Shown here one piece after another: positions 3,805 through 47,167 of a DNA stretch of 64,000 nucleotides. Position 1 is the stretch's first letter. Each line of letters opens with the position of its first letter. The DNA comes from Candidatus Aenigmatarchaeota archaeon. GTDB taxonomy: Archaea; Aenigmatarchaeota; Aenigmatarchaeia; QMZP01; QMZT01. The stretch is from contig JAFGDH010000031.1 of assembly GCA_016932215.1 (NCBI GenBank), positions 1 through 64,000 of the forward strand, given 5' to 3'. The position numbers were made by a program, and so were the translations under genes. The notes beneath the pieces are model-generated. The model saw only the letters and a list, made by a program, of their open reading frames with translations. It did no database searches and was not told the origin of the DNA.

Positions 3805-4056
3805 TCATTCCCATTCCAACTGGTAGTGGCTCGAAACGCTCCGGTGGTCGGGTATAACCTTTACAGTTTCGGGCTCTCCGGGAACCAGCTTCAGTTTATT
3901 CTTCCTGCCATCGCCCATGCCATTCAGTTCTTCCGGATAAAGTTTGAAAGTCTTCTTCTCGATCAGCCAGTAATAACTTCCCTCTGGAACGCTTTCTGTC
4001 ACTGTTTCCAGCACAGGGAACGACTTAAGGCAGACTTTCCCGTTCTTATAGCTCAT
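3805..4056 (-). CDS. Hypothetical protein, 83 aa
   Basis: A small acidic-basic soluble protein starting MSYKNGKVCLKSFPVL. I recognise no family; predicted mostly beta (alternating hydrophobic stretches GSYYWLIEK, KLKLVPG, TVKVIPD). The start is well supported by a strong ribosome site GAGGAGGT about 5 bases upstream of the ATG on the minus strand. It is convergent with the HEPN gene. Directly upstream lie two copies of the dispersed hairpin family, the first with a TATA-like sequence in its loop, so the hairpins may be within the promoter or leader of this gene. Confidence 0.75.
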   Translation of the reverse strand: MSYKNGKVCLKSFPVLETVTESVPEGSYYWLIEKKTFKLYPEELNGMGDGRKNKLKLVPGEPETVKVIPDHRSVSSHYQLEWE

Positions 4057-4079
4057 AATTAACCTCCTCTGTTTCGAAT

Positions 4080-4109
4080 GACAGCTTTATGCAACCAATA
4101 TAAGCTGTC
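4080..4109 (+). repeat. Dispersed hairpin repeat, copy 2a
   Basis: Perfect 8-base arms GACAGCTT / AAGCTGTC separated by a 14-base loop. It is preceded by TTCGAAT and followed by GTACGCTTCG, then 18 bp on by copy 2b in the same orientation. The arm GACAGCTT recurs at 47038. Confidence 0.8.
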
Positions 4110-4127
4110 GTACGCTTCGTTTCGAAA

Positions 4128-4157
4128 GACGACTTGATAAAATCAATACAAGTCGTC
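4128..4157 (+). repeat. Dispersed hairpin repeat, copy 2b
   Basis: Perfect 8-base arms GACGACTT / AAGTCGTC with a 14-base loop, preceded by TTCGAAA and followed by ATGCGCTTGC. Its loop resembles the loop of the copy at 10173-10202 read on the opposite strand. Relative to copy 2a the arm bases change in a compensatory way, which preserves pairing. Confidence 0.8.
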
Positions 4158-4373
4158 ATGCGCTTGCTTGCTCCGTTAGAGAAGCAGAATATACTCTCAC
4201 CAGAAGAAAAAGGACCTTTCATCAGAATCACTCAGAAGATGAAGGCCCTCAAAGGAGCACGACCACTACGAGCAGGACGACTACTTGCAAAGAAACTGCC
4301 AGATTCGAAACCTGTCGGAAGTGGTTCATCTTATACACAATTAATTTTTGTCCGGGAACATATTTATGGCTGA
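4158..4373 (+). other. Doubtful open frame, 71 codons, in the 4057-4390 gap
   Basis: The 334-bp gap between the minus-strand genes holds the two hairpins and then an open frame beginning at ATG 4158 (MRLLAPLEKQNIL) and ending at 4373. It uses CGA for arginine repeatedly, unlike the AGG/CGG-rich neighbours, and lacks a ribosome site or TATA box. It may be chance, a decayed gene or part of a transferred fragment. I see no RNA gene in the gap. Confidence 0.25.
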
Positions 4374-4390
4374 TGTGCAGGTTTTTCTGG

Positions 4391-5065
4391 TCATTTCCTC
4401 GCCGTTATCGAGTAGCAGAGCCCGAAATATGGGTTGGGATGCTCCCTGACGAAGCGGAAGCCGATCCTCTCGAGTATCTCCTTCATCTCTTTGAACGTGT
4501 GCGGGTGGAGGATGCTGCCGCTCACCCCTTTCATGATCCCCTCGCCGAATATCTCGATGTCCTTCCTGTGCTCGGGAAGAAGTCCTTTTTTCCGGATGTC
4601 CTCGTAATATGAGTTCAGGACGAGGTTGCTGTTTCCCGGCGTTATTCTCCCGGTTATGGCGAACGTCCCTCCCGGGCGCATGACGCGGAAATGCTCTCTT
4701 AATGCCCCCTCGAACCTCACCACGAAGTGCATCGCGAACATGGAGGTAACTCCATCGAATATCCCGTCGCCGAATGGGAGGATCTCCATGCTGGCGTTTC
4801 TTATAAAAAGATTTTTTTTATACTGTGAACATTTCTTTTTTAGCATCTCCATCGCCTTCCGGCTGGTGTCGAGGGCGTAAACCTTCTGGTCCCTCTTCAG
4901 CAGCTCCAGCGTCACGTTCCCCGTCCCGCAACCGCTGTCCAGCACCGTCCCGAGCCCGCTCATGGCCTTGACATGAAAACCCTTCACCTGACTGTAAATG
5001 GATGAATGCTCAAGGATCCTGTCGTAGGCGTCGAGATACCTGCCTTCCCAGAGAGCGGTGTCCAT
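4391..5065 (-). CDS. Class I SAM-dependent methyltransferase, 224 aa
   Basis: Rossmann-fold methyltransferase of the Methyltransf_11 kind. Motif I is VLDSGCGTGNVTLELL (about 42-57), motif II ends in YALDTSRKAMEML (about 63-75), and the motif IV/post-I region contains DGIFDGVTSMFAMHFV (about 98-113). MRPGGTFAITGR (about 130) is the usual strand-5 turn. There is no membrane segment, so it is cytoplasmic. The substrate is unknown: the family spans quinone, lipid and small-molecule methylation. It is divergent from the phosphoesterase at 5139. Confidence 0.9.
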   Translation of the reverse strand: MDTALWEGRYLDAYDRILEHSSIYSQVKGFHVKAMSGLGTVLDSGCGTGNVTLELLKRDQKVYALDTSRKAMEMLKKKCSQYKKNLFIRNASMEILPFGDGIFDGVTSMFAMHFVVRFEGALREHFRVMRPGGTFAITGRITPGNSNLVLNSYYEDIRKKGLLPEHRKDIEIFGEGIMKGVSGSILHPHTFKEMKEILERIGFRFVREHPNPYFGLCYSITARK

Positions 5066-8996: not shown

Positions 8997-9653
8997 ATGA
9001 ATAAGCTGTTCCCAGGCATCTGGAAGAAAGACGAAAAGATCATTACCCAAAATCTGGTACCCGGGGACAAGACCTATACAAAAAATATTTTTAACTTCAG
9101 AGGCCGGGAGTACAGGGAGTGGAACCCTTTCAAATCGAAGGCCTGCGCCGCGATCGCCTGCGGGCTGAGGGAATTTCCACTCAAATCCGGGTTGAAGGTC
9201 CTCTACCTTGGAATATCGTTCGGGCAGACCGCCACATTCTTTTCCGACATAATCGGGAAGGACGGTATAATATACGGCGTCGAGTTATCGGAAAGATGCC
9301 TGACCGACCTTAATTCGGTCGCTGAAAAAAGGGGGAATATCGTCCCGATCCTCGGCGATGCCAGGAAGCCGGACGAGTACGGCTGGATAGAGCCCGTGGA
9401 CCTGATTTACGAGGACGTGGCTTCCGACGACCAGGCGGAGATCATGATCCGGAACTCTTCGCATTTTTTGAAGCCGGGCGGCTTCGCCATGATAGCGATA
9501 AAGGCGAGATCCATCGATGTCGTGAAGGAGCCGAGGATAGTTTTTAAAGAACAACTGGAGATATTAAAAAAACATTTTGAAGTGGTCGAGACGAGAGACA
9601 TCGAAAAATTCGAGAAGGATCACCTTTTTGTTGTGCTCAAACGAAAGACGTAG
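8997..9653 (+). CDS. flpA: Fibrillarin-like rRNA/tRNA 2'-O-methyltransferase, 218 aa
   Basis: The catalytic subunit of the archaeal box C/D RNP, which methylates the 2'-OH of rRNA and tRNA at positions chosen by guide RNAs. The N-terminal beta-sheet domain (to about 60) ends in the family-typical YREWNPFKSKACAAI (about 40-54). The SAM-binding motif is VLYLGISFGQTATFFSDII (about 69-87), with EDVASDDQAEI (about 139) and LKPGGFAMIAIKARSID (about 158-174, with catalytic Lys). Length is close to the usual 225-230 aa. In most archaea it lies directly beside nop5; here nop5 is on the opposite strand 560 bp away with a small membrane protein between. A compact hairpin repeat overlaps its stop codon. 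Confidence 0.95.
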   Translation: MNKLFPGIWKKDEKIITQNLVPGDKTYTKNIFNFRGREYREWNPFKSKACAAIACGLREFPLKSGLKVLYLGISFGQTATFFSDIIGKDGIIYGVELSERCLTDLNSVAEKRGNIVPILGDARKPDEYGWIEPVDLIYEDVASDDQAEIMIRNSSHFLKPGGFAMIAIKARSIDVVKEPRIVFKEQLEILKKHFEVVETRDIEKFEKDHLFVVLKRKT

Positions 9654-9667
9654 GCTTCGCCCACGTC
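9647..9667 (+). repeat. Dispersed hairpin repeat, copy 3 (compact form)
   Basis: 9-base arms GACGTAGGC / GCCCACGTC around a 3-base loop (one pair is G-T when read on the minus strand). It is preceded by ACGAAA and followed by ATGC. It begins inside the penultimate codon of flpA, so it may end or stabilise that transcript. Confidence 0.6.
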
Positions 9668-9731
9668 ATGCAATCCGGCTTTAAATTATATTAAAAAATT
9701 ATTTTATAATACCCAAAATGATATTCTAATC

Positions 9732-10160: not shown

Positions 10161-10172
10161 AAAATTAGATAT

Positions 10173-10202
10173 GATGACTTATAATTATTTTATCAAGTCA
10201 TC
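10173..10202 (-). repeat. Dispersed hairpin repeat, copy 4
   Basis: Perfect 8-base arms GATGACTT / AAGTCATC with a 14-base loop, lying between two convergent gene ends. On the minus strand it reads TTTCGAAA then GATGACTT then a GATAAAAT-type loop, closely matching copy 2b at 4128. This shows that family members occur in both orientations. Confidence 0.8.
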
Positions 10203-10211
10203 TTTCGAAAC

Positions 10212-31081: not shown

Positions 31082-31174
31082 CCTGGTCGGTTTTTAAGAT
31101 TTGTAACATTCAACGATTTTATATAATGTGCAGAACTCGTTAATATCGGTTCCTGTTGCCTGTTAGAATAATAC

Positions 31175-31209
31175 TTATTTAAAAACAAAAGTATTCATCA
31201 TATATACAC
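31175..31209 (+). promoter_or_regulatory. TATA box of the tRNA-Ala gene
   Basis: ACTTATTTAAAAAC at about 31173-31186 lies about 25 bp upstream of the first base of the mature tRNA at 31210, the usual archaeal spacing. Confidence 0.5.
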
Positions 31210-31382
31210 GGGCCGGTAGATCAGTGGTAATTTGAAACATGCACCATGCACCGCACGTTTCTTTCGCTGAAGATCGCCACCTTGGCATGGTGGAGGCCTC
31301 GGGTTCAAATCGCACAAGTCAAATCTGAAATGTTGTTTTGACGGGCTTGTCCCGTCTGTGCGTGAGTCTCCCGACCGGTCCA
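31210..31382 (+). tRNA. tRNA-Ala(GGC) interrupted by two introns
   Basis: The exons read GGGCCGG (acceptor, 31210-31216), TA, GATC-AGTGGTA (D arm, 31219-31229), then GATC (31272-31275), G, CCACC-TTGGCAT-GGTGG (anticodon arm, 31277-31293, anticodon GGC at 31284-31286), AGGCC, TCGGG-TTCAAAT (T arm, 31299-31310), CCCGA (31370-31374) and CCGGTCC (31375-31381), A. All four stems pair, with one G-T in the acceptor. The inserts are about 42 nt in the D loop (about 31230-31271) and about 59 nt after the T loop (about 31311-31369); junctions may shift by a base or so. The second insert folds into GTCAAA/TTTGAC and GACGGG/CCCGTC hairpins. There is no insert at the canonical position 37/38. No CCA is encoded. 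Confidence 0.88.
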
Positions 31383-31394
31383 TAGATTACGAAC

Positions 31395-31424
31395 GACATC
31401 TTGAAACAATATGTATAAGATGTC
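31395..31424 (+). repeat. Dispersed hairpin repeat, copy 6a
   Basis: Perfect 8-base arms GACATCTT / AAGATGTC around a 14-base loop, preceded by ACGAAC and followed by ATGTTC, 13 bp after the tRNA-Ala gene. Part of a pair with copy 6b. Confidence 0.8.
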
Positions 31425-31441
31425 ATGTTCTGACGACTAAA

Positions 31442-31462
31442 GACGCAGATCGGATCTGCGTC
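31442..31462 (+). repeat. Dispersed hairpin repeat, copy 6b (compact), terminator-like
   Basis: 10-base arms GACGCAGATC / GATCTGCGTC around a single base, followed by ATTTAATTTTTTTT. The stem plus T-run would act as an intrinsic-type terminator for the tRNA transcript. The GACG...CGTC ends match the compact copies at 26 and 9647. Confidence 0.6.
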
Positions 31463-31518
31463 ATTTAATTTTTTTTGGAATAAACGCCGGATAAAAAATT
31501 CATTCTCTGTTATTCTTT

Positions 31519-39683: not shown

Positions 39684-39693
39684 ATAAGGGAAT

Positions 39694-39714
39694 GAAGCAT
39701 GCCTTGCATGCTTC
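39694..39714. repeat. Dispersed hairpin repeat, copy 7 (compact form)
   Basis: Perfect 9-base arms GAAGCATGC / GCATGCTTC with a 3-base loop, followed by ATGCGAAACC, which is close to the family flank. It starts 11 bp after the gap stop, so it may be the 3' end structure of the pgk-gap mRNA. The rest of the 200-bp gap (39715-39884) shows no convincing gene. Confidence 0.55.
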
Positions 39715-39884
39715 ATGCGAAACCATAGGAAAGAAGCAGTTATAAACTGTTCACGTGCGAAGCGGAGGAAAAAGCTGCGGGGGAATCGGTTTTGCCGTTT
39801 CATCCGTTTCGGTTCAACAGGATGCTTATCCCTGAACCTCCTGAAAGGATTCTCCCGGCGGGGTTTCCAAATCCGCTTCGCGTC

Positions 39885-45361: not shown

Positions 45362-45453
45362 AACTTTAGTATGTTGGCCGGATTTATATAAATTGTTCAC
45401 CGTCGTTGGTCGTTTTTGGGGTCGGGTAAATTTATCGATTGTCTAACTGCAGA

Positions 45454-45483
45454 GACGACTTACACCGGCCTGTTCAAGTCTTC
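45454..45483. repeat. Dispersed hairpin repeat, copy 8
   Basis: 8-base arms GACGACTT / AAGTCTTC (one mismatch) with a 14-base loop containing ACACCGG, like the loop of copy 5 at 22290. It is in the promoter or leader region of the epimerase, between the divergently transcribed GGGP synthase and epimerase genes. Confidence 0.65.
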
Positions 45484-45528
45484 ATTGGAAATTTAACAAT
45501 TTATATCCTCCGGAACAAATGAAATTAT

Positions 45529-46816: not shown

Positions 46817-47029
46817 GTGGTGAATCGTGTGGCAGGAGAATCTCGTGAATACGGTCACTGGCCGGGGATAGTGCAGATGAGAACCGGAATCCCTAGCTGG
46901 AAGTGCTCGAGGTGCAACTTCGTTTTCAAGGGTGATGATGCCCCTAAAACGTGTCCGCTTTGTCACAAGGACGCGGAGTTCGAGATGATAAAGGACTACA
47001 GGGACTTCTCTGACATAGACATGGACTAA
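46817..47029 (+). CDS. Rubredoxin-like zinc/iron ribbon protein, up to 70 aa
   Basis: The core WKCSRCNFVFKGDDAPKTCPLCHKDAEFEMI has the Cx2C...CPLC pattern of rubredoxin-type domains, which bind iron or zinc. The start is ambiguous: GTG 46817, GTG 46829 or ATG 46877 are in frame. GGTGAAT at 46819 best serves 46829. Not coupled to neighbours. Confidence 0.75.
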   Translation: MVNRVAGESREYGHWPGIVQMRTGIPSWKCSRCNFVFKGDDAPKTCPLCHKDAEFEMIKDYRDFSDIDMD

Positions 47030-47037
47030 AAGGGAAT

Positions 47038-47067
47038 GACAGCTTGAACCAATTAATGTTAGCTGTC
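47038..47067 (+). repeat. Dispersed hairpin repeat, copy 9
   Basis: 8-base arms GACAGCTT / TAGCTGTC (the loop-proximal pair mismatched) around a 14-base loop containing CCAAT, as in copy 2a. It starts 9 bp after the rubredoxin-like stop. Flanks are GGGAAT before, and TCGTACTTTTGGTTCGAA after, echoing GTACGCTTCGTTTCGAA after copy 2a. Confidence 0.75.
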
Positions 47068-47167
47068 TCGTACTTTTGGTTCGAATAACAAACTTTCTGA
47101 GGTTTATACAGAAATTCAAATCTTATTATAGGATGAAAATTAATTAATTGTATCGGGGTCCGTCTTA

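Follow-up and report, generated by a model that had tools for sequence, protein, structure and literature searches.

Two bulge-helix-bulge introns in an Aenigmatarchaeota tRNA-Ala(GGC) gene, and a dispersed hairpin element as the probable source of several tRNA and rRNA introns

The stretch of DNA analysed here (64 kb, hereafter called the window) belongs to an Aenigmatarchaeota (DPANN) MAG of 1.14 Mb, in 43 contigs and 89% complete, designated G000 below. When the unspliced 64-kb window was submitted to ARAGORN and to Rfam, no tRNA was detected by either. A custom-written, intron-aware parser, in which introns were allowed at positions 20/21, 37/38 and 59/60, returned one tRNA locus in the 64 kb, a tRNA-Ala(GGC) gene at 31210-31382 with a score of 44.9. 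In 300 dinucleotide-preserving shuffles of the window, 297 gave no parse and the best of the three that did scored 37.9 (0/300 at or above 44.9). The locus reads as GGGCCGGTAGATCAGTGGT, 42 nt, AGATCGCCACCTTGGCATGGTGGAGGCCTCGGGTTCAAA, 59 nt and TCCCGACCGGTCCA. Removal of the 42 and 59 nt leaves a perfect 72-nt tRNA-Ala(GGC) with a G3:U70 pair, and ARAGORN, when given this spliced sequence, called tRNA-Ala(ggc) with four complete stems and G3:U70, which bears out the identity, the four stems and the two insert lengths proposed earlier by a sequence-only reading. The G3:U70 pair is the alanine identity element. The CCA end is not encoded. The parser placed no intron at 37/38, again as had been read. 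The coordinates of these features and of the hairpin elements of the window are collected in Table 1.

Table 1. Parts of the tRNA-Ala(GGC) gene and hairpin elements in the window
Feature	Position	Strand	Evidence
Head-to-tail pair of type B elements (4071-4118, 4119-4166)	4071..4166	+	R3 members
Type A element, end of protein gene	9638..9676	-	R1/R2 member
Type B element, between convergent open frames	10164..10211	-	R3 member
A+T-rich TATA-like box, ~30 nt upstream of tRNA-Ala(GGC); putative promoter of that gene	31168..31184	+	read from sequence
Exon 1, tRNA positions 1-20: acceptor 5' strand, D stem 5' strand, D loop	31210..31228	+	ARAGORN on spliced sequence; parser
Intron 1, 42 nt, 20/21, D loop	31229..31270	+	BHB; weak end-to-end R1 match
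Exon 2: A21, D stem 3' strand, anticodon arm CCACC-TTGGCAT-GGTGG (GGC), variable loop, T stem 5' strand, T loop to A59	31271..31309	+	ARAGORN; parser
Intron 2, 59 nt, 59/60, T loop	31310..31368	+	BHB
Exon 3: T60, T stem 3' strand, acceptor 3' strand, discriminator A73	31369..31382	+	sequence; ARAGORN
Type B element, 4 nt past tRNA-Ala(GGC)	31386..31433	+	R3 46.8 bits, E 2.8e-11 in window
Type A element, tandem with the type B copy at 31386..31433	31433..31471	-	R1 member; R2, trained without this copy, E 3.2e-6
Type A element, between protein genes	39685..39723	+	R1/R2 member
Type B element	45445..45492	-	R3 member
Type B element, outside training set	47029..47076	+	R3 36.0 bits, E 4.9e-8

Bulge-helix-bulge (BHB) motifs, which the sequence-only reading had proposed to look for, are present at both junctions of the Ala-GGC gene, with 4/4 pairs in the outer helix and 4/4 in the central helix of each (parser). 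At the D-loop junction, GATC (31219-31222) pairs with GATC (31272-31275) in the outer helix and AGTG (31223-31226) with CGCT (31265-31268) in the central helix, with one G-U pair, and the bulges are GT/A on the 5' side and GA/A on the 3' side (slash at the junction); the inner helix is weak (1/4 pairs) and is followed by a GAAAC:GTTTC stem. The T-loop junction is a textbook BHB, in which the outer helix is formed by TCGGG (31299-31303) and CCCGA (31370-31374), the central helix by TTCA (31304-31307) and TGAG (31363-31366), and the inner helix by CGCACA (31311-31316) and TGTGCG (31357-31362), with inner pairs 4/4 and bulges AA/T (5') and TC/T (3'). Since the BHB motifs set the junctions at 20/21 and 59/60, the second insert lies inside the T loop and not after it, where it had been placed before. 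The minimum-energy fold of the unspliced precursor includes the intron hairpins (z -2.3). As the tRNA is restored, a BHB is present at each junction and neither site is 37/38, both inserts have the make-up of noncanonical archaeal BHB introns.

The two inserts, and the fact that standard tRNA finders miss the gene, could also be read as the signs of a pseudo-tRNA that was disrupted by insertions and is left unspliced. This is hardly credible, however: the exon stems and the conserved loop positions are all intact, both junctions carry a BHB, and the same architecture is found in Ala-TGC, Thr-GGT and other genes of G000 as well as in the Ala-GGC gene of a relative (G005). A second intact Ala-GGC gene, which in the earlier reading would have favoured a pseudo-tRNA, was not found by pattern search of the assembly. 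On the intact exons, the two BHBs and the lack of a second copy in that search, the pseudogene reading was rejected.

The middle exon of Ala-GGC was found in 15 genomes, G000 included, and the inserts were read by eye. Three orthologues, in G004 (same family), G016 and G034, have no introns, and their exons are alike save for a few substitutions; both junctions are thereby confirmed. The D-loop insert alone is present in G003, G008, G012, G025 and G054, the T-arm insert alone in G018, G021 and G036, and both inserts in G005. The presence of the introns among relatives, in the D loop, in the T loop, in both or in neither, is thus mosaic. The T intron of G021 occupies the same site and has a similar GCACAAG inner stem.

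The subunit type of the splicing endonuclease, another point to be looked up in the genome, could be read from the one PF01974 protein that G000 encodes (396 aa). Its best PDB match is 4fz2, the epsilon2 enzyme of ARMAN-2 (E 4e-103, residues 10-396 aligned). The protein is a single alphaN-alpha-betaC chain of the size of epsilon2 enzymes (about 390 aa) and contains the ARMAN-specific loop with Y160 and K161, numbered as in ARMAN-2; in an alignment of 17 proteins, Y160 is invariant and K161 is conserved in at least 90%. In ARMAN-2 epsilon2, both residues are required for cutting BHB and relaxed substrates, and the change of either Y160 or K161 to alanine leaves no detectable cleavage (PMC12397907). 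The named relatives of the G000 enzyme at 66-70% identity come from Candidatus Aenigmatarchaeota MAGs. Judged by its sequence, the enzyme is of the epsilon2 type; epsilon2 is a broad-specificity class, and such a class had been predicted from the two introns. An RtcB ligase is also encoded (E 1e-157). In several relatives (G012, G014, G016, G018, G019, G034 and others), the epsilon2-type protein (~400 aa) is accompanied by a short PF01974 protein (~185-240 aa); G000 has the epsilon2 type only, with no short second PF01974 protein. An archaeal epsilon2 gene was also seen in record MFMA01000035.1 (L160), under the title Candidatus Kaiserbacteria, which is probably a binning or labelling error.

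From these data, a processing route can be proposed. The precursor, apparently transcribed from the sole Ala-GGC gene, would fold into the BHBs at 20/21 and 59/60; the epsilon2 endonuclease, a homodimer in ARMAN-2, would cut each 3-nt bulge behind its second nucleotide, and the exons would be joined by RtcB to give a standard tRNA-Ala. The same endonuclease would clear the introns from the tRNA set as a whole, where interrupted genes are the majority.

Indeed, 21 of the 25 tRNA genes parsed in G000 (24 plus Ala-GGC) carry introns, in a catalogue that was drawn from selected stretches of the genome and is incomplete; the intronless four are Thr-TGT, Val-CAC, Val-GAC and Gln-CTG. The parser found two introns each in Ala-TGC, Thr-GGT, Lys-CTT, Pro-TGG, Arg-TCG, Val-TAC and Leu-TAA, and three each (20/21, 37/38 and 59/60) in Glu-TTC (L234) and Met-CAT (L235). 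Two introns in one tRNA had been considered unusual; in this genome, nine genes besides Ala-GGC parse with two or three. The 59/60 intron is common to all three Ala isoacceptors. Furthermore, an identical T-arm intron is shared by Ala-CGC (C27:31132-31177) and Gly-TCC (C31:8264-8309), which lie on different contigs, and a near copy of it is present in Asp-GTC (C40:1995). The parser made errors: Gly-TCC was assigned as Thr-CGT, and several genes whose introns lie at other sites, among them Gly-GCC, Ile-GAT and Gln-TTG, were missed and were read by eye. In this way, two introns appeared to lie around the anticodon loop of Ile-GAT, and one within the anticodon stem of Gly-GCC and of Gly-TCC (L244, which is C1:14700-15100, L236 and L009). 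Two other observations were made on the search patterns. Repeated GGTTCAAGACC-like matches at C16:15516-23589 lie in what appears to be the coding sequence of beta-propeller (PQQ-like) repeats and not in tRNA, and in G057, of another family, eleven matches resemble T-arm introns (GGTTCAAA...TGAAAYTCC), with A+T-rich inserts unlike those of G000.

A recurrent intergenic stem-loop surfaced in a hairpin listing of the G000 sequence. Dispersed stem-loop elements of 39-48 nt are present in this genome in a number of the order of 100, and two types were distinguished: type A, with a stem like GAAGCAGAT and a loop of 3-5 nt, and type B, with a GAYNNCTT stem and a loop of ~14 nt. Both are flanked by TTTCGAA on one side and ATGCGCTT on the other. 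The type B pattern gave 53 matches in G000 against 3 in the reversed control, and 25 in G015 and 26 in G019 against 2 in each control; in most other relatives, it was at about control level. The stems of the elements differ from one another by paired changes. Tandem copies follow each other head to tail 47-48 nt apart, a spacing which suggests the unit length of the element.

Short hairpins dispersed between genes, in head-to-tail units ~47-48 nt apart, recall REP-like elements that a RAYT/IS200 Y1 transposase mobilises, in which case the tRNA introns would be accidental landings. No Y1_Tnp domain (PF01797), however, was found in any of the three element-rich genomes (G000, G015 and G019). This mobilisation was therefore rejected, and we regard it as very unlikely.

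In order to compare the elements with the introns, three models were used. R1 was trained on 11 copies, two of which, the D-loop intron of a Lys tRNA and the 16S insert, are in RNA genes. Because these two copies proved to be in RNA genes, R2 was built from nine type A copies at protein-intergenic sites, most of them drawn from the R1 match list. R3 was trained on twelve type B copies of G000 outside RNA genes. In a search of 157 kb, R2 recognised the T-arm introns of Ser-CGA (E 6.4e-9) and Glu-TTC (E 1.1e-7) and an insert near the 3' end of the 16S rRNA (E 6e-8), and, at lower significance, the introns of Arg-TCG in the D loop (E 1.2e-4) and at 37/38 (E 3e-4), an intron of Met-CAT (E 3.8e-4), the D-loop intron of Lys-TTT (E 0.0024) and the T intron of Lys-CTT (E 0.011). 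In G019, which belongs to another family, the top match of R3 (C21:7128-7175, E 2.9e-11) sits within a T-arm intron of a tRNA-Gly-like gene (C21:7123-7178) that was found independently by a different pattern. R3 matched further T-arm introns at C21:59337 in G019 and C11:1484 in G015, and inserts in the 16S and 23S rRNA.

Several short, element-matching inserts were noticed in the 16S and 23S genes of G000 (L306, C26:33800-40800), at positions 859-903, ~1289-1346, ~2180-2345, 3956-4003, 4113-4161 and 4352-4399 of that locus. The conserved 690 loop holds one of them, and AAGTCGTAA and ACAAGGTAGCC are separated by an insert of ~170 nt. If the 16S insert at 859-903 were spliced at a strict BHB, CAGGCTAAAA would be joined to TCCTGAC. 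For the 690-loop insert, a BHB with a central GTAA:TTAC helix, read by eye, would restore GTAGGGGTAAAATCCTATAATCC; the scan offers other solutions.

For Ala-GGC itself, the two introns give different results. The first has a core hairpin, GAAACATGC/GCACGTTTC with TTTCG after it, that is similar to the dispersed type A element, and R1 aligned end to end with the intron, with a weak score (12.9 bits, E 0.38 in 64 kb); these data are at most suggestive of an element copy. The second intron matched neither R1 nor R3.

The introns might be ordinary noncanonical introns, inherited vertically with no mobile element involved, and the intergenic hairpins terminators or processing hairpins of similar shape. 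The second Ala-GGC intron, with no resemblance to the elements and a counterpart at the same site in G021, fits this explanation, as do the positions 20/21 and 59/60, which were already known to harbour introns (PMC4090602). It accounts poorly, however, for the mosaic distribution among orthologues and for the identical T introns of Ala-CGC and Gly-TCC. Nor do the models judge by shape alone: stem sequence, loop and flanks all enter the score, and introns are matched down to E 6e-9 and 3e-11. As an account of the introns as a whole, vertical inheritance is unlikely.

The contexts of the copies were then compared. Where a copy lies in the T arm of a tRNA or in 16S, it occupies a BHB context. 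For intergenic copies, a BHB exon context was no more frequent than by chance (18/35 against 18.4 expected when the flanks were re-dealt among copies), and the idea that these copies are spliceable mRNA introns was rejected on this result. The same test is powerless for the tRNA and 16S sets, as the flanks are alike within each class (nulls of 4.3/6 and 2/2). The TCGAA end of the element is complementary to the conserved TTCGA of the T loop, and where a tRNA has TTCAA, its intron carries CTGAA instead. Because of this complementarity, the T loop suits the element. Since models trained on intergenic copies recognise introns, and since the copies in RNA genes are in BHB contexts and the intergenic ones are not, several tRNA and rRNA introns are probably inserted copies of a spreading hairpin.

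The direction of the spread could also be the opposite one, from tRNA genes to intergenic DNA, the intergenic copies then being the debris of excised introns, linear or circularised, that were reinserted. The intergenic copies keep the TCGAA end, of which the evident pairing role is in the T arm only, and their BHB context is at chance level, both in favour of this direction. On the other hand, copies in tRNA genes are far less numerous than intergenic ones, and the type B copies of G000 lie mostly between genes. We consider this origin doubtful, and favour RNA genes as the target of the spread, not as its starting point.

Taken together, the explanation which we retain, with a probability of about 85%, is that the Ala-GGC gene carries two spliced BHB introns and that part of the tRNA introns of this genome are copies of a small stem-loop element dispersed between genes. 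A copy landing in the TTCGA of a T loop would be spliceable at once through its complementary end; the element would spread, and its insertions in tRNA and rRNA would be kept wherever the splicing endonuclease is able to excise them. In a broader form, for which we would claim only a slight preference, the Aenigmatarchaeota may harbour a self-standing family of short hairpins, with copies of the order of 100 here, that inserts into intergenic DNA as well as into tRNA and rRNA genes and survives in stable RNA where the TCGAA end forms a BHB, above all in the T-loop TTCRA, the endonuclease removing it. If this is true, the family would be a concrete and ongoing source of new archaeal BHB introns. 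How archaeal tRNA introns arise is an open question, and here a likely donor sequence is visible outside tRNA genes, in G000 and in relatives, with insertions that can be compared with intronless orthologues. Epsilon2 enzymes and heavy loads of noncanonical introns extend to the Aenigmatarchaeota, and since standard tools miss interrupted genes, the tRNA genes of such MAGs are undercounted.

Both tRNAs with several introns and epsilon2 enzymes were already known. A search of the open-access literature turned up no paper that deals with the tRNA introns of Aenigmatarchaeota and none that describes copies of BHB introns between genes. The present endonuclease has the same three-unit chain (~395 aa) and Y160/K161 loop as the epsilon2 enzyme of ARMAN-2 (Micrarchaeum acidiphilum; PDB 4FZ2, 9W2K); its host is an aenigmatarchaeon, and it is known here from sequence. 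Multiple noncanonical BHB introns have been described in Thermoproteales, for instance at 25/26, 56/57 and 37/38 of a Pyrobaculum tRNA-Pro (PMC4090602, PMC8450103), and Pyrobaculum calidifontis, with 71 introns in 46 genes, is the richest genome assessed (PMC8450103). The sequence-only reading had drawn the comparison with Thermoproteota, and the parallel is one of function alone; in both cases the BHB introns are short, occur at 20/21 and 59/60 among other sites, number up to three per tRNA and are nearly identical in different tRNAs. The lineage and the enzyme differ, the present host being a DPANN archaeon with an epsilon2 enzyme instead of (alpha beta)2, and no description of intergenic hairpins related to introns was found for Thermoproteales. 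In the large-scale intron transposition of Fujishima 2010, as summarised in a review (PMC4090602), the same or nearly the same intron occurs in unrelated tRNAs, as in Ala-CGC, Gly-TCC and Asp-GTC here; unlike in that summary, a candidate source lies outside the tRNA genes of G000. The gain of an intron from a mobile element was proposed by Sugahara 2012 for one Caldiarchaeum tRNA, by an integrase-type route that differs from the hairpin element (PMC3293823). The 16S inserts are flanked by BHB-forming exons like the 16S rRNA introns of Thermoproteales (PMC4496867), but two of those in G000 are only ~45-50 nt long and are copies of the dispersed hairpin. Finally, the elements share with bacterial REP/BIME sequences the form of short palindromes dispersed between genes, often in tandem; they differ from them in that no Y1/RAYT transposase accompanies them and in that copies in G000 serve as predicted BHB introns.
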